Source of the DNA: Bradyrhizobium diazoefficiens
GTDB taxonomy: Bacteria; Pseudomonadota; Alphaproteobacteria; Rhizobiales; Xanthobacteraceae
Assembly: GCF_016612535.1 (NCBI RefSeq)
Contig: NZ_JAENXS010000003.1
Coordinates: 372,001-436,000 of the forward strand
DNA length: 64,000 bases
Direction: 5' to 3'
A program made the translations under genes and the position numbers. This document shows, one piece after another, positions 30,029-35,981 of this stretch. The notes beneath the pieces are model-generated. The model was not told the origin of the DNA. It ran no database searches and worked only from the letters and a program-made list of their open reading frames with translations. Numbering within the stretch: the stretch's first letter is position 1; the number at the start of each line of letters is the position of its first letter.

Positions 30029-30787
30029 TCAGCCGCGTCCCACGAACGGCATCTTGCTCGCCATCACGGTCATGGTCAGCACGTTGGCATCGAGCGGCAG
30101 GCCGGCCATGTAGGCCACGGCGTCGCCGACCGCCTTGGCGTCCATGCGCGGCTCGTGCTTCATCGTGCCGTCGGCCTGCATCACGCCGGGGCCGGCGACC
30201 ATGCGGTCGGTCATCGGGGTGGCGGCATTGCCGATGTCGACCTGGCCGACCGCGATGTCGTACATGCGGCCGTCGAGGTTGGAGGCCTTGGTCAGGCCGG
30301 TGATGGCGTGCTTGGTCGAGGTATAGGCCGCCGAGAACGGCCGCGGCGCATGCGCCGAGATCGAGCCGTTGTTGATGATGCGGCCGCCGCGCGGTGACTG
30401 GTCCTTCATGATGCGGAAGGCGTGCTGGGTGCACAGGAACGGTCCGGTGAGATTGGTGTTCACCACCGCCTGCCATTGTTCGAGACCGAGGTCCTCGAAA
30501 TTCACCGGCGGTGCGCCCATGCCGGCATTGTTGAAGAGCACGTCGAGCCGGCCATAGGTTGCCTTCACGTTGTCGAACAGCGCGGCGATCTGGTCCGGCT
30601 TGGTCATGTCGGCGGTGACGCACAGGCTCTTGCCCGCGGGACCGAGCTTTGCAGTCTCCTCGAGCATGTCGAGCCGGCGCCCGACCAGCACCACGGTGAA
30701 GCCGATGTTCATCAGCGCCAGCGACGCGGCGCGCCCGACACCGGTGCCTGCGCCCGTCACAACTGCGATCTTTTTTGCTTCGCTCAT
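30029..30787 (-). CDS. SDR-family NAD(P)-dependent oxidoreductase
   Basis: A 252-residue short-chain dehydrogenase with the cofactor motif [23 protein letters not shown], and the catalytic Ser ([11 protein letters not shown]) and Tyr-x3-Lys (AYTSTKHA). The acidic residue that would favour NAD is replaced by GRR, which favours NADP. It starts 24 bp after the Anbu gene stop on the same strand and may be read through from the Anbu cluster, though similar SDRs are common elsewhere. Substrate unknown. Confidence 0.92.
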
Positions 30788-30811: not shown

Positions 30812-31570
30812 TCAGGTTTTGGGTTCTTTTTCGTTCTTGTAGGGTGGCCGCGGAATGTTCTGATGCGCCGCGCGCAACGCCGCCGACCAGCGCGAGCGCA
30901 GATCGTGGAAATAGGGCTCGCCCGCCTCGATGCGGTGGTTGAGATCGGCATCGCAGGCGTCCGCGCGCACCACCAGCACGTCGATCGGCAGGCCGACGCC
31001 GAGGTTCGAGCGCATCGTCGAGTCCATTGAGATCAGGCCGGTCTTCAGCGCCTCATAGAGCTCGACGTCGTAGTGCATGGCGCGGTCGAGCACCGGCTTG
31101 CCGTATTTGTGCTCGCCGATCTGCAGGTACGGCGTGTCGGTCGTGCACTCGATGAAATTGCCGGCGGTGTAGACCATGAACAGGCGCATGCGCGCGCCCT
31201 TGATCTGCCCGCCGAACAGAAACGAGACGTCGAACGACACGTCCTCGGATTTCAGCGCCGGGCCCTCGGTCGCGTGCACGGCGCGGATCGCCCGGCCGAT
31301 GCGCTGGGCGGCCTGGAACATGGTCGGCGCATTCATCAGCGTCTCGACTTCGCCCGTGTCGGGGTCCTCGAGGCCTTCAGTCAGGGTGGATAGCACCGAC
31401 TGGCTGATGGCGAGGTTGCCGGCGCTGGCGATCGCCATGATGCGATCGCCGGGTTTTGAGAAGATGTGCAGCTTGCGGAAGGTCGAGACATTGTCGAGGC
31501 CGGCGTTGGTGCGGGTGTCGGCGATCATCACCAGACCGTCCCGAACCAGAATTCCACAACAATAGGTCAT
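30812..31570 (-). CDS. Anbu-type proteasome-like peptidase (bacterial proteasome homologue)
   Basis: A 252-residue Ntn-hydrolase of the Anbu group. After removal of Met1 the protein would begin with Thr, the family nucleophile, in TYCCGILVRDGLVMIADTRT, followed by AGLDNVSTFRKLHIF with the conserved Asp and Lys positions. Anbu particles form open-ended rings rather than a closed barrel, and their natural substrates are unknown. It is the last of four genes, downstream of a transglutaminase-like protein, an alpha-E protein and a permuted ATP-grasp enzyme. This set is a well-conserved neighbourhood for which peptide ligation and turnover have been predicted. Confidence 0.93.
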   Translation of the reverse strand: MTYCCGILVRDGLVMIADTRTNAGLDNVSTFRKLHIFSKPGDRIMAIASAGNLAISQSVLSTLTEGLEDPDTGEVETLMNAPTMFQAAQRIGRAIRAVHATEGPALKSEDVSFDVSFLFGGQIKGARMRLFMVYTAGNFIECTTDTPYLQIGEHKYGKPVLDRAMHYDVELYEALKTGLISMDSTMRSNLGVGLPIDVLVVRADACDADLNHRIEAGEPYFHDLRSRWSAALRAAHQNIPRPPYKNEKEPKT

Positions 31571-31681
31571 TTCCAGTCCCCGCGAGCCTTTGCGCGGAAT
31601 TACTAGCCAATTTCAGGGGCCGCTCCAACCCCAATTCCCGCGGGGCAGGGTGAGTTCGTCATTCCGGGCCAGGCAATGAAA

Positions 31682-32530
31682 CTAGCTCTGCCGCTGGGAC
31701 TGCGATTGCGACTGGCCGCCGCGGCCGGCCTGCTCGACCTTGACCGCGACCGTCAGCGTCTCCGTGCCGCCGCCATAGCGAGTGCCGCGCACGGGAGCTG
31801 CGCCGAGATAATCGAGCCCGATCGCGACGCGGACGTGGGCATCGGTGGTGCAGATGCTGTTGGCGGGATCGAAGCCGACCCAGCCGAGGCCATCGACGTA
31901 AGCTTCCGCCCAGGCATGCCCGGCATCCTGATGCACCGTGCCGTCGGAGCGCAGAAAGTGCCCCGAGACGAAGCGCGCCGGCACGCCGCCGGTGCGAGCG
32001 CAGGCGATGAAGATGTGTGCGTAATCCTGGCAGACGCCGCGCTTCAGCGTAAACGCCTCCGACGCTGACGTGCCGCTGTTGGTCGGATCTTCGTCGAAGG
32101 TCATGTGATCGCTGATCTCGGTCATCAGCGTGTGCAGGAAACCGAGCGTGTCGCTCTCGGCCTCGCTACGCAGCTGACGCGCGACCGCCGTCATCGCGGG
32201 ATTGACAGTCGTGAGATCGGTGGCGCGCAAAAACATGCCCGCCGGAAAGCGCTCGTCCGCACCACGCAGTACGCCGCCGGTGTCGTGGGTCTCGATCAGG
32301 CCTTCGGCGATGATCTTGATGTCGCCGACGGGTCCGCAGGACAAGACGTGGGTGACGTTGCCGAAGGCGTCTTCGTGGGTGTCGAGCTTGGTGTCGGTCG
32401 AGACGTCGATCTGCCACTCCGCCACATATTGACCGTCATGGCTGCACGGCGTCATGCGCAGGATCTGGATCACGCTCGTCGCCGCCGGCTCGTAGCGATA
32501 GGTCGTGGTGTGCAGGATTCGCAGGCGCAT
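31682..32530 (-). CDS. Transglutaminase-like cysteine protease family protein
   Basis: A 282-residue cytoplasmic protein. The bacterial N-terminal domain (RLRILHTTTYRYEPAATSVI) is followed by the papain-like core with Cys in LKRGVCQDYAHIFIACAR, His in DAGHAWAEAYVDGLGWVGFD and Asp in GFDPANS, a complete triad. The C-terminal GGQSQSQSQRQS tail is low complexity. The ATG at 32530 is chosen; a longer start at 32557 would lie in a repeat arm. Third gene of the ATP-grasp/alpha-E/transglutaminase/Anbu set. It could remove or transfer peptides made by the ATP-grasp enzyme. Confidence 0.92.
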   Translation of the reverse strand: MRLRILHTTTYRYEPAATSVIQILRMTPCSHDGQYVAEWQIDVSTDTKLDTHEDAFGNVTHVLSCGPVGDIKIIAEGLIETHDTGGVLRGADERFPAGMFLRATDLTTVNPAMTAVARQLRSEAESDTLGFLHTLMTEISDHMTFDEDPTNSGTSASEAFTLKRGVCQDYAHIFIACARTGGVPARFVSGHFLRSDGTVHQDAGHAWAEAYVDGLGWVGFDPANSICTTDAHVRVAIGLDYLGAAPVRGTRYGGGTETLTVAVKVEQAGRGGQSQSQSQRQS

Positions 32531-32598
32531 GGTGGACCGTTGTTCTGGTGTCGTCATTCCGGGCTCGCCCTGCGGCCCACATCGGAACGACAGCAGTA

Positions 32599-33543
32599 TC
32601 AGATCAAATACTGCTTCGCGATGATTTCGCCCAGCCTGGAATTGTCGACGATGAATTCCTGAATGAATTCATGCACGCCATGCTGGAAAATGTCATTCAT
32701 GTTGCTGTGTTCGAGCCGGTTGCGGATGCCGCGGGCGTGGCGCTGGGCCGGGCCCTGGCGGCCATAGGCGACGCCGATCTGGTCAAGGTTGCGCGTGAGA
32801 TTGTCGTAGCAGCTCGCAAGCGAGCGCGGCAGCGTGCCGTTGAGGATGAGCAGATCCGCGACCAGCCAGGGTTTCAGCGTCTCGCGATAGACCCAGTGAT
32901 AGGCCGTCAGCGCCGACACCGAGCGCAGGATCGAACTCCACTGATAGAAGTCGAGCGGGCCGCCGACATGTTCTTCCTCGGGCAGCAGCACGTGGTACTT
33001 CACATCGAGGATGCGTGCGGTGTTGTCGGCGCGCTCCAGGTGCAGGCCGAGCCGCGAGAACCAGTAGGCGTCGTTGCGCAGCATGGTCCGGTAGGCCGAG
33101 CCATCGAAGCGCAGCGAGGTCTCCTGCACGAAGCGGAGGAATTTTGCCAGGTCTTCGCGCGTCGAGGTGCCCTTGCTCCAGACTTCCTGCAATTCGATCC
33201 AGGCCGAATTGATGGTGTCCCACATCTCGCTGGTCAGCGCGGTGCGCACCGAACGCGAGTTCAGGCGCGCCGCCTCGATGCAGTTCCTGATCGAGGACGG
33301 ATTGTTCGGCGAGAATGACAGGTACTCGACGACATTGGTCTCGTTGGCTTCCTTGTATTGCTCATAGAAGCTCGCGGCGACGCCTGCGGTGAGCAGCGCC
33401 GAGTCCCATTCGTTGGTCTTGCCGATATAGGCGGCGGGAAGCGCGGTGACGCGCAGCGTCGCATCGATGGTGCGCGCGAGATATTCGGCCCGTTCGACGT
33501 AGCGGGCGAGCCAATAGAGGTTTTCGGCGGTACGCGACAGCAT
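32599..33543 (-). CDS. Alpha-E domain protein
   Basis: A 314-residue all-helical protein of the alpha-E family. It starts LSRTAENLYWLARYVERAEY and has conserved DNTARILDVKYH and LTAYHWVYRETLKPWLVADLL helices rich in Trp, Arg and Glu. No enzymatic residues are defined for this family, and it occurs almost only beside permuted ATP-grasp genes, so it is likely a partner or scaffold. Its start is 4 bp after the ATP-grasp stop, showing tight coupling. Confidence 0.93.
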   Translation of the reverse strand: MLSRTAENLYWLARYVERAEYLARTIDATLRVTALPAAYIGKTNEWDSALLTAGVAASFYEQYKEANETNVVEYLSFSPNNPSSIRNCIEAARLNSRSVRTALTSEMWDTINSAWIELQEVWSKGTSTREDLAKFLRFVQETSLRFDGSAYRTMLRNDAYWFSRLGLHLERADNTARILDVKYHVLLPEEEHVGGPLDFYQWSSILRSVSALTAYHWVYRETLKPWLVADLLILNGTLPRSLASCYDNLTRNLDQIGVAYGRQGPAQRHARGIRNRLEHSNMNDIFQHGVHEFIQEFIVDNSRLGEIIAKQYLI

Positions 33544-33547
33544 CTCT

Positions 33548-34966
33548 CTACTCGTCCAAAATCCAGGTATCTTTGGTGCCGCCGCCCTGACTCGAATTCA
33601 CCACGAGCGAGCCTTCCTTGAGCGCGACGCGGGTGAGCCCGCCCGGGACGATCGTCGTGCTCTTGCTGCCGGTGAGCACGAAGGGCCGCAGGTCCACGTG
33701 GCGCGGCGCAAGGCCAGAGGCCGTGCAGGTCGGGCAGGTCGAGAGCGCCAGCGTCGGCTGCGCGATGAAACCTTCCGGCTCGCGCTTGAGCTTCTCGCGG
33801 AAGGCTTCGATCGTTGCCTTGGTCGCGGCGGGGCCGATCAACATGCCGTAGCCGCCGGAGCCGTGGACTTCCTTGACGACGAGATCGCCGAGATGGTCGA
33901 GCACGTAGGCCAGATCTTTCGGCTCGCGGCAGCGCCAGGTCTGAACGTTCTTCAGGATCGGCTCCTCGCCGAGGTAGAATTTCACGATTTCCGGCATGTA
34001 AGAGTAGATCGCCTTGTCGTCGGCGATGCCGGTGCCGACGGCGTTGGCGAGCGTGATGTTGCCGGCGGCATAGGCCGACATCAGGCCGGGGACGCCGAGC
34101 GCGGAGTCGGGGCGGAAAGTGAGGGGATCGAGGTAATCGTCATCGACGCGGCGGTAGATCACGTCGACCCGTTTCACCCCTTCCGTCGTCCGCATGAAGA
34201 CCTCGTTGTTCTTGACGATGAGGTCGCGGCCTTCGACGAGCTCGATGCCGAGCTTGTCGGCGAGGAAGGAGTGCTCGTAATAGGCGGAGTTGTAAACGCC
34301 GGGTGTCAGGAGAGCGACGGTCGGTTCGCCCGAGGCACCGTTCGGCGCGACCGAGCGAAGAGCGGAGAGGAGCTCGTCCGGATAGCGCTCCACCGGCGCC
34401 ACCCTGTGGCGGGCGAACAGATCCGGAAACAGCCGCATCATGATCTCGCGGTTTTCCAGCATGTAGGACACGCCGGAGGGTGTGCGGGCATTGTCCTCCA
34501 ACACGATGAAGTGCTCGGCATCGACCCTGATGATATCGATGCCGGCGATGTGCACGTAGACGTCGTGCGGCACCTGCTGGCCGTTCATCTCGGGGCGGAA
34601 CACCGGATTCTGGAAGATCAGATCGTCGGGCACGATCTCGGCACGGAGGATGTCGCGGCCATGATAGATGTCGCGCAGGAACATATTGAGCGCGCGCACG
34701 CGCTGCTTCAGGCCCTTCTCCAGCAGGGTCCATTCCTTGCCGGACATGATCCGCGGGATCACGTCGAAGGGGATCAGGCGTTCGGTGGACTCGGATTCGC
34801 CATAGACAGCGAAGGTGATGCCGATCCGGCGGAACAGGAGTTCAGCCTCCTGGCGGCGATATTCGAGCGCCTCGGGAGGCGTCTCCTTGAGCCAGCGCGC
34901 CAGCTCCTGATAGGCGGGGCGAAGGTCCCCGCCGGGAATATTCATTTCGTCAAACGCGACTGCCAT
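33548..34966 (-). CDS. Circularly permuted type 2 ATP-grasp protein
   Basis: A 472-residue predicted amide ligase. Segments typical of the family are FDVIPRIMSGKEWTLLEKGL, LEDNARTPSGVSYMLENREI, LTPGVYNSAYYEHSFLADKLG, VYRRVDDDYLDPLTFRPDS (first letter approximate), VVKEVHGSGGYGMLIGP and the late DLRPFVLTG; these supply nucleotide and metal contacts in permuted order. The ATG at 34966 is preferred; the upstream open sequence does not resemble the family. First gene of the four-gene set, and the enzyme expected to make a peptide or isopeptide bond using ATP. The product is unknown. Confidence 0.92.
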   Translation of the reverse strand: MAVAFDEMNIPGGDLRPAYQELARWLKETPPEALEYRRQEAELLFRRIGITFAVYGESESTERLIPFDVIPRIMSGKEWTLLEKGLKQRVRALNMFLRDIYHGRDILRAEIVPDDLIFQNPVFRPEMNGQQVPHDVYVHIAGIDIIRVDAEHFIVLEDNARTPSGVSYMLENREIMMRLFPDLFARHRVAPVERYPDELLSALRSVAPNGASGEPTVALLTPGVYNSAYYEHSFLADKLGIELVEGRDLIVKNNEVFMRTTEGVKRVDVIYRRVDDDYLDPLTFRPDSALGVPGLMSAYAAGNITLANAVGTGIADDKAIYSYMPEIVKFYLGEEPILKNVQTWRCREPKDLAYVLDHLGDLVVKEVHGSGGYGMLIGPAATKATIEAFREKLKREPEGFIAQPTLALSTCPTCTASGLAPRHVDLRPFVLTGSKSTTIVPGGLTRVALKEGSLVVNSSQGGGTKDTWILDE

Positions 34967-35243
34967 AGATCCCGACTTGTCTCCGCAAGGCGTTGCGCCA
35001 TTTGACAGGTCGCGAGGCCTTGGTGAAGACCGCAACGTCCTGGCCATGCGGCAAGAGTGCATGACTTTCATGTGGTAGCAAGGGGCGGGCCAGCGCGATA
35101 AGCATGGAGAAAGGGCATTTGCCTGATATGGCCGGCAACGTGCCTGAAAAAATGGCTGAGGACTGCTTATTTCGGCAGCAAAACCGCGTGACTTCAACGC
35201 GTTACCTCGGCAAAGTCGGCTGAAGAGGTGAGGGACTTCAGGC

Positions 35244-35981
35244 ATGAGCGAGATCGTCACGGCGGGCATTCTGGTCATCGGGGATGAAATCCTGTCCGGC
35301 CGGACCAAGGACAAGAATATTGGCTTCATCGCCGAATACCTGACCAATATCGGCATCGACCTGAAGGAAGTCCGGGTCGTCTCCGACGACGAGGACGACA
35401 TCATCGCCGCTCTGAATGCACTGCGGCAACGCTACACCTATGTCTTCACCACCGGCGGAATCGGGCCGACCCACGACGACATCACCGCCGACAGCATCGC
35501 CAAGGCTTTTGGCGTCGGCATCGACCACCATCCCGAAGTGGTCGCGCGTTTCCGCGAGCGCTGGAGCGAGCAGGACCTCAACGAGGCCCGGCTGCGTATG
35601 GCCCGCATCCCCGAGGGCGCCGAGCTGATCCAGAGCGCCACCATCCTCGCGCCCGGCTTCAAGATCGGCAATGTCATCGTCATGGCGGGCGTGCCCTCGA
35701 TCATGCAGGCGATGATGGACATCGTCTCGCCCAAGCTGAAATCCGGCGTGCGCATGCTGTCCGAATCGGTCCGCGCCAACGCGCGGGAAGGCGATATCGG
35801 CGGCCCGCTGCGAGCGATCGCGGCCGAGCACCCCGACACCATTATCGGCAGCTATCCCTTCATGGACGAGGACTCGAAGCCGAACACCAATCTGGTGGTG
35901 CGTTCGCGCGATGCTGACAAGCTGGCGGCAGCGATGGCGGCAGTGAAGGACATGCTAGGGACCCTGGGCGCGAAGGGCTGA
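35244..35981 (+). CDS. CinA-like / molybdopterin-binding domain protein
   Basis: The 245-residue protein is a MoCF_biosynth-type domain of the CinA N-terminal kind: AGILVIGDEILSGRTKDKN at the start and FTTGGIGPTHDDITADSIAK at residues 68-87. There is no C-terminal deamidase (PncC) domain, so it is the short form. In longer relatives this domain has ADP-ribose pyrophosphatase activity; this copy could do the same, but that is inference. A GAGGTGAGGG box precedes the ATG. It is divergent from the ATP-grasp operon. Confidence 0.9.
   Translation: MSEIVTAGILVIGDEILSGRTKDKNIGFIAEYLTNIGIDLKEVRVVSDDEDDIIAALNALRQRYTYVFTTGGIGPTHDDITADSIAKAFGVGIDHHPEVVARFRERWSEQDLNEARLRMARIPEGAELIQSATILAPGFKIGNVIVMAGVPSIMQAMMDIVSPKLKSGVRMLSESVRANAREGDIGGPLRAIAAEHPDTIIGSYPFMDEDSKPNTNLVVRSRDADKLAAAMAAVKDMLGTLGAKG

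Follow-up and report, generated by a model that had tools for sequence, protein, structure and literature searches.

A Bradyrhizobium copy of the Anbu operon with a conserved sigma54-type element before its ATP-grasp gene

The stretch of Bradyrhizobium diazoefficiens DNA analysed here (NCBI RefSeq assembly GCF_016612535.1, contig NZ_JAENXS010000003.1, positions 372,001 to 436,000, i.e., 64,000 nucleotides; in the following, the window) contains the Anbu gene set, which consists of four genes encoding a circularly permuted ATP-grasp protein, an alpha-E protein, a transglutaminase-like protein and the proteasome-type protein Anbu. The window holds an intact, ordinary member of this already described system; what is new in this analysis is the regulatory layout, in which the leader of the ATP-grasp gene bears a conserved element of sigma54 type and an NtrC-like palindrome. 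From the ATP-grasp gene to Anbu, the genes are arranged as follows:

33548-34966, minus strand: circularly permuted ATP-grasp protein, putative amide ligase (472 amino acids, aa; PF14403/PF04174, 3n6x)
32599-33543, minus strand: alpha-E protein (314 aa; PF04168)
31682-32557, minus strand: transglutaminase-like cysteine peptidase/transferase (291 aa; PF01841, PF08379)
30812-31570, minus strand: Anbu, proteasome-type N-terminal nucleophile (Ntn) hydrolase (252 aa; residue 2 is Thr; solved Anbu chains)

The genes are separated by 4 bp (ATP-grasp/alpha-E), 41 bp (alpha-E/transglutaminase) and 111 bp (transglutaminase/Anbu). The ATP-grasp protein covers both of its profiles over their full length (PF14403, positions 1-374 of 374, E 1.4e-167, 557.8 bits; PF04174, positions 1-332 of 332, E 1.2e-162, 540.9 bits) and matches the solved chain 3n6x, titled 'putative glutathionylspermidine synthase', with residues 4-471 (E 2.8e-206); its reading frame is open upstream to 35404, and it is with the start at 34966 that this match begins at residue 4. 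The alpha-E protein likewise spans its whole profile (PF04168, positions 1-294 of 294, E 8.4e-92, 308.4 bits), and its predicted structure is all-helical (predicted local distance difference test, pLDDT, 83; predicted template-modelling score, pTM, 0.86), with best matches in the PDB of E 0.42 by sequence and of E 0.87 by Foldseek. Matches of the transglutaminase-like protein are to PF01841 (E 2.2e-23, 83 bits) and PF08379 (E 1.4e-17, 64.6 bits). Anbu matches the profile PF00227 (E 6.6e-6) and aligns in sequence, across nearly its full length, with the solved Anbu chains 5loy (E 6.6e-82), 5nyj (E 1.9e-74), 5nyf, 5nyw and 5lox (all E ≤1.4e-61). Among the NCBIfam models, Anbu has a weak match to that of the archaeal proteasome beta subunit (27 bits versus a cut-off of 224), and the three other proteins have none at E 0.001.

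Concerning the catalytic residues, conservation was counted on local alignments of loci outside Bradyrhizobium, such that the numbers describe conservation and not activity. In Anbu, Thr2 is kept in 114 of 115 loci and Asp18 and Lys33 in all 115; in the transglutaminase-like protein, the triad is kept as Cys176 (90/91), His214 (91/91) and Asp230 (91/91); and in the alpha-E protein, Arg24, Arg100 and Glu170 are examples of the Arg and Glu positions kept in 95 of 95 loci. The ATP-grasp protein has by far the most invariant positions of the four. With the initiator Met counted, Thr2, Asp18 and Lys33 of the window Anbu fit the published catalytic residues of mature Anbu, namely Thr1, Asp17 and Lys32/33 (PMC6376114). 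The four genes are intact and correctly read, they lie on one strand, and there is little doubt about their families; an earlier note on this DNA, which named these families, their order, the 4-bp spacing and the Thr after Met1, agrees with profiles, structures and coordinates, and its word 'complete' is correct for the four genes.

The regulatory layout is formed by the following elements:

35077-35092, minus strand: sigma54-type -24/-12 element TGGCCCGCCCCTTGCT, situated in the leader of the ATP-grasp gene at 126 to 111 nt ahead of its ATG
35164-35180, minus strand: TGC-N11-GCA palindrome, a candidate enhancer site whose spacing is NtrC-like; it begins 88 nt further upstream than the -24/-12 element
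31600-31628, minus strand: candidate separate Anbu promoter, TTGGAG-17 nt-TAGTAA, with largely conserved leader blocks

These elements were compared with the best 80 loci for the window Anbu (92-100% identity; 77 titled Bradyrhizobium, B. cytisi first), which are called Bradyrhizobium-level in the following. The Anbu of locus L025 (JAUEPE010000008.1), titled 'Frankia sp. RB7', is 98% identical to the Bradyrhizobium one, and this label or the assembly is probably wrong. The sigma54 consensus reads TGGCAC-N5-TTGC, from which the window element differs by one base. Its core is invariant in all 66 readable Bradyrhizobium-level ATP-grasp leaders, each of them a different sequence, and GG and GC at -24/-12 are kept with the consensus spacing in 66/66; the remaining leader averages 78% conservation, and part of the spacer of the element varies. 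Among 263 positions of the same shape in the leader, one is equally conserved, which is the element itself. Of 68 aligned sequences (67 Bradyrhizobium-level ones including the window, plus L114), 67 had the site; the exception, locus L050, was excluded because its stretch ends within the ATP-grasp gene, whose match starts only at residue 225, so that no leader is present. In the 8 Mb genome, which carries a sigma54 gene, the pattern TGGCNCGN4TTGCW has 28 matches, including the ATP-grasp leader, versus 9 for a reversed control pattern. TGC-N11-GCA is the outer frame of NtrC sites; the ends of the palindrome are kept in 66/66 Bradyrhizobium-level leaders, and its interior varies. From this leader, together with the Pseudomonas putida reporters described below, we infer nitrogen limitation as the candidate trigger of the ATP-grasp, alpha-E and transglutaminase genes in Bradyrhizobium. 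Of product, target and trigger, which the earlier note left open, it is thus the trigger that now has a candidate. A divergent gene of CinA/MoCF type (35244-35981, plus strand; PF00994) starts at a distance of about 150 bp from the sigma54-type element, and the intergenic region may therefore serve both genes.

Outside Bradyrhizobium, a sigma54 site (within one mismatch, 200 nt) is found in 17 of 79 operon leaders, seven times perfectly, compared to 12 of 874 control leaders of neighbouring genes, of which one is perfect (Fisher 1.8e-12). The antisense strand of the 79 leaders contains no such site (0/79), and base shuffles gave a mean of 0.4 and a maximum of 2. Counted by genus, the site is present in 12 of 51, and in further loci of the own family it was found within 250 nt in 11 of 14. 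Since the 17/79 are enriched over controls, yet 62 of the 79 leaders, including all 6 of family f3, have no site within one mismatch, the sigma54 site is real and recurs, but it is not universal.

Concerning Anbu itself, its distance to the transglutaminase gene was determined in 74 Bradyrhizobium-level loci (7 of 81 had no transglutaminase match and were left out) and amounts to at most 300 bp in 22, to 301-1000 bp in 24 and to more than 1000 bp in 28 of them. Of these 28 large inserts, 19 contain an antisense gene call, as made by a crude caller. An AhpD-like gene is situated between transglutaminase and Anbu in 35 of the 74 loci and is absent from the window; it exhibits a CxxC-type motif (e.g., in L024 and L044), by which it presumably belongs to the AhpD/carboxymuconolactone-decarboxylase family. 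Across 81 Bradyrhizobium-level leaders, the 60 bp before Anbu are largely conserved, with a TTGGCTA-like block in 22/28 long-gap, 24/24 middle-gap and 19/22 short-gap loci and GGTTGG in 21/28, 17/24 and 16/22, respectively. No sigma54 site within one mismatch was found in 79 Bradyrhizobium-level Anbu leaders. Generic scans of the region yielded 1 sigma70 promoter, compared to an expectation of 1.1, and 5 terminators, compared to 3.6. The simplest reading of the conserved leader would be that Anbu has a separate promoter. Given this largely conserved leader, and given the gap of more than 1 kb before Anbu in 28/74 loci, a single-operon model is unsafe, and the one operon from 34966 to 30029 assumed in the earlier note is doubtful.

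Among 299 sampled genomes of Pseudomonadota, Anbu (E ≤1e-10) is present in 101 and an ATP-grasp relative (E ≤1e-30) in 156. The latter occurs in 100 of the 101 Anbu genomes versus 56 of the 198 genomes without Anbu; the Fisher value of 3e-37 is too small, because related genomes are not independent. In G094, the sole Anbu genome without an ATP-grasp relative, a profile search did not find one either. The dependence is plainly one-sided: Anbu goes with the others, and the others often occur without Anbu. At 95 Anbu loci outside Bradyrhizobium (94 genomes), the canonical four-gene order is found in 59, spanning 20 families; of the other 36, three lack a transglutaminase gene immediately ahead of Anbu while ATP-grasp and alpha-E are present, 18 show a rearranged order with an ATP-grasp gene at no more than about 9 kb, and in 15 no ATP-grasp gene is found within that distance. 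In family f33, the gene preceding Anbu in loci L132, L133, L135, L137 and L139 is MutS-like, as judged by eye, and no ATP-grasp lies within about 9 kb; this MutS-like gene is common to seven f33 loci, and their genomes carry an ATP-grasp relative elsewhere. In loci L182, L184, L186, L188, L189, L191, L203, L205 and L207, Anbu is surrounded on both strands by an elaborate cluster, in which ATP-grasp relatives and transglutaminase-like genes occur twice each, together with alpha-E.

For recurrent neighbours, open reading frames (ORFs) of at least 90 aa were called around 118 Anbu loci, up to a distance of about 9 kb, and grouped by BLASTP; the loci comprise the 95 from outside Bradyrhizobium, a further 20 from the own family and 3 of Bradyrhizobium. 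Only the four genes of the set recur widely, in clusters of 34, 30, 28 and 21 families; these counts are lower bounds, because the crude ORF caller lost several ATP-grasp, alpha-E and transglutaminase copies seen by tblastn. The next widest two clusters reach 7 families, one of them consisting of antisense ORFs and the other being ABC-type-ATPase-like, and were rejected as a fifth component. One relative of 541 aa (P0020), possibly an assembly error, combines alpha-E and transglutaminase domains in a single chain, and ATP-grasp and alpha-E are fused in a second cluster of the same genome as well as in at least 120 relatives of that fused protein, i.e., in all those listed; both arrangements hint at a functional pairing.

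The same operon has been described before and, with reference to Iyer et al., predicted to be a peptide-synthesis or tagging system (PMC6376114, PMC5666114). The ligase-plus-peptidase logic of the earlier note is right, whereas its claim of the best candidate for an undescribed system in the window was too strong, as operon, tagging prediction, structures, phosphate release and nitrogen induction are all found in the literature (PMC6376114, PMC5666114, PMC8050072, PMC7801951). Anbu proteins are known for a dodecameric ring (PMC5666114), which is open, and for an additional helix at the C-terminus. In the parts consulted of the studies on purified, co-expressed or endogenous proteins, the assays yielded no product (PMC6376114, PMC5666114), and for Yersinia bercovieri neither a stable complex among the four proteins nor peptidase activity of Anbu was detected (PMC6376114). 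An ATP-grasp homologue releases phosphate from ATP, an assay that leaves amide formation and plain hydrolysis undistinguished, and this release is not stimulated by glutamate or glutamine (PMC6376114). The literature searches made yielded no biochemistry of the Bradyrhizobium Anbu-set proteins; those on nitrogen control, in one case covering 20 of 746 papers, listed nothing on the Anbu operon in Bradyrhizobium, which is no proof of absence, as subscription papers were mostly outside their coverage.

We take the proteasome-type protease COG3484 to be Anbu. In alpha-, beta- and gammaproteobacteria, the sigma54 regulon as listed in print includes this protease (PMC12316311), a DUF404/407-DUF403-transglutaminase cluster is less expressed in an ntrC mutant of Burkholderia cenocepacia (PMC5491218), and in marine metagenomes these domains are associated with urea-metabolism domains (PMC3597751). 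In Pseudomonas putida grown on nitrate compared to ammonium, PP_2685 (Anbu) and PP_2688 (ATP-grasp) are upregulated by log2 4.44 and 3.99, respectively; with reporters, the fragment upstream of PP_2688 responds 3.7-fold to nitrogen limitation, whereas that of PP_2685 is constitutive (PMC8050072). The Bradyrhizobium DNA suggests the same split. A further study reports, for nitrogen limitation, an induction of PP_2686-PP_2688 by 12.6-, 11.0- and 14.7-fold in the wild type and by 14.2-, 16.0- and 19.6-fold in an rpoN mutant, with Anbu (PP_2685) changing only 1.12-fold in the wild type (PMC7801951).

We assign a probability of about one half to the reading that, in this Bradyrhizobium copy of the known Anbu operon, an amide-ligase/peptidase arm is induced by nitrogen limitation and the Anbu hydrolase is expressed separately. 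According to its family and the phosphate release shown for the homologue, the ATP-grasp protein with its alpha-E partner would activate a carboxyl group at the expense of ATP and link it in an amide or peptide bond; the transglutaminase-like enzyme would, to judge by its residues, use its Cys-His-Asp triad to cut or transfer a bond of this kind; and Anbu, likewise judged by its residues, might remove or recycle the product by means of its N-terminal Thr. Under nitrogen limitation, the sigma54-type promoter before the ATP-grasp gene would raise the expression of the ligase, alpha-E and transglutaminase genes, whereas Anbu, by an additional promoter of its own, would be expressed more steadily, as the conserved DNA and the P. 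putida reporters indicate. In brief, the set might economize nitrogen by means of a make-and-trim arm that is inducible, next to a hydrolase that is always at hand. A more specific and tentative version, to which we give little credence so far, is a split-control conjugation cycle, with the maker arm under a promoter of sigma54/NtrC type and the remover Anbu on its own constitutive promoter, on the same plan in Bradyrhizobium and Pseudomonas. If it held, conjugates would exist only during nitrogen shortage and be cleared once nitrogen returns, and rhizobia, whether free-living or in root nodules, would have a conditional modification pathway by which to economize nitrogen.

Several observations weigh against the nitrogen-induced operon with separately expressed Anbu. 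Concerning the ATP-grasp leader, the -24 box of the window has C at the position of A in the consensus, 15 of the 80 Bradyrhizobium-level loci (L050 included) have no readable ATP-grasp leader, and most leaders outside Bradyrhizobium are without the site, as given above. The palindrome fits the full NtrC consensus poorly; with one leader for each of 20 genera, at least 10 of 12 matches to this consensus were reached in L152, L148 and L177 only. No sigma54-type site within two mismatches was found in the 500 nt upstream of the second cluster. The candidate Anbu promoter was not scored by the generic sigma70 scan, and the conserved blocks of the Anbu leader are missing from some loci. As for the published data, Anbu mRNA rising by log2 4.44 on nitrate is not simply constant (PMC8050072), the induction in the rpoN mutant argues against sigma54 dependence in P. 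putida (PMC7801951), and complex and Anbu peptidase activity are missing in the Y. bercovieri results (PMC6376114).

Other explanations concern the nature of the product and the coherence of the set. Protein tagging, as proposed in print (PMC6376114, PMC5666114), would have ATP-grasp and alpha-E attach a peptide tag, the transglutaminase crosslink or mature it, and Anbu remove the tag or degrade the tagged proteins, similar to pupylation or ubiquitylation. The proteasome fold of Anbu and its nearly constant co-occurrence with the ATP-grasp relative agree with this; however, among the genes called around the set, which were those of at least 90 aa, none beyond the four is widely recurrent, and hence no tag gene of that size, and the reported experiments detected neither protein interaction nor peptidase activity (PMC6376114). 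We regard tagging as improbable. Equally improbable is a small-molecule pathway, in which the ATP-grasp protein would make a free amide similar to glutathionylspermidine, to be hydrolysed by transglutaminase and Anbu; the resulting metabolite cycle would be linked to nitrogen and would not act on a protein. It would accord with the title of 3n6x, the sole solved ATP-grasp relative found, with the joint upregulation of the set and of genes for urea and nitrate in P. putida, and with the link to urea-metabolism domains in marine metagenomes (PMC3597751); that title, however, is an annotation and not an assay, glutamate and glutamine did not stimulate the homologue (PMC6376114), and a dodecameric ring (PMC5666114) would be unusual for a metabolite hydrolase. 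Somewhat less probable still is that ATP-grasp, alpha-E and transglutaminase work together in one function, that Anbu, alone or along with the downstream short-chain dehydrogenase/reductase (SDR), serves another, and that their linkage is historical. The 15 of 95 loci without a nearby ATP-grasp gene, the 56 genomes with ATP-grasp but no Anbu, and the gaps of more than 1 kb in 28 of 74 Bradyrhizobium-level loci, 19 of them with an antisense gene call, would fit separate action, but the ATP-grasp relative is present in 100 of 101 Anbu genomes, those with stand-alone Anbu included, and gene order is conserved over 20 families.

The SDR gene, which the earlier note considered as a possible fifth component, follows Anbu after 24 bp:

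30029-30787, minus strand: SDR oxidoreductase (PF00106, 157.9 bits)

The Anbu-SDR order is found in 81 of 81 Bradyrhizobium-level loci, with a median distance of 24 bp in Bradyrhizobium (range -4 to 546, 82 loci), and the two genes may there be read from a shared transcript. Within 119 genomes of the own family (Anbu E ≤1e-30, SDR E ≤1e-70), Anbu is present in 101 and the SDR in 103; both occur in 92, Anbu only in 9, the SDR only in 11 and neither in 7 (Fisher 0.003). Yet at 102 Anbu loci of this family, 43 have the SDR co-directionally within 1 kb downstream and 32 have it at 1-15 kb, whereas in 18 it is located elsewhere or on a different contig and in 9 it is missing; the second half of an Anbu gene split between contigs (G300) is left out here, and counting it changes elsewhere to 17 and 1-15 kb to 33. 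In 15 of 20 fetched own-family loci (L209-L223), mostly picked for a wide Anbu-SDR gap (1-15 kb group), a GGDEF-EAL-like gene of about 760 aa, its domains named by eye, is situated between Anbu and the SDR; as a link between the two or as a component, this gene was rejected, its cluster being confined to own-family loci. Outside the family, 7 of 93 loci contain an SDR at up to about 9 kb, in each case a distant one (25-31% identity) and never adjoining Anbu downstream, and 19 of the 25 members of the SDR neighbour cluster come from the own family. The SDR is a neighbour of Anbu within the family and not part of the conserved set; as a fifth enzyme of the Anbu system it is very improbable, and in the preferred reading, i.e., the inducible arm beside a standing hydrolase, it would be an adjacent gene only.

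The Anbu set is widespread, and its product was not reported in the literature searched. In a tractable rhizobial genus, the conserved sigma54-type element and the separate Anbu leader would point to ammonium shortage as the condition, and to a split of three genes versus one, under which the question of the product becomes testable.

Compared to known systems, the second cluster of the same genome (L113:7730-14484, minus strand; G000:C2) contains the same ATP-grasp, alpha-E and transglutaminase families but differs in its composition: it encodes a transglutaminase-type protein of 1108 aa as an addition, an ATP-grasp/alpha-E fusion of 841 aa and a transglutaminase-like protein of 292 aa, with no Anbu in the stretch and no sigma54 site found. 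Glutathionylspermidine synthetase/amidase combines an ATP-grasp ligase with a cysteine amidase, a pairing similar to that of the window; these two are, however, parts of a single fused protein, with neither Anbu nor alpha-E. The solved Anbu chains (5nyj, 5nyf, 5nyw, 5lox, 5loy) have the Thr, Asp and Lys residues in common with the window Anbu. The genes I35_5080-83 of B. cenocepacia resemble the second cluster in gene content, whereas they are unfused and NtrC-dependent (PMC5491218), and the Anbu operon of Y. bercovieri shares its gene set with the window (PMC6376114). The same set is present in P. putida, where PP_2685 encodes a proteasome beta subunit and PP_2688 the ATP-grasp protein (PMC8050072), PP_2686 the transglutaminase (PMC7801951), and PP_2687, going by gene order, probably alpha-E. 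P. putida belongs to another class of the same phylum, and its genes were in one study also induced in the rpoN mutant (PMC7801951); its ATP-grasp side responds to nitrogen limitation and its Anbu upstream fragment is constitutive, a split that is proposed here for the window as well.

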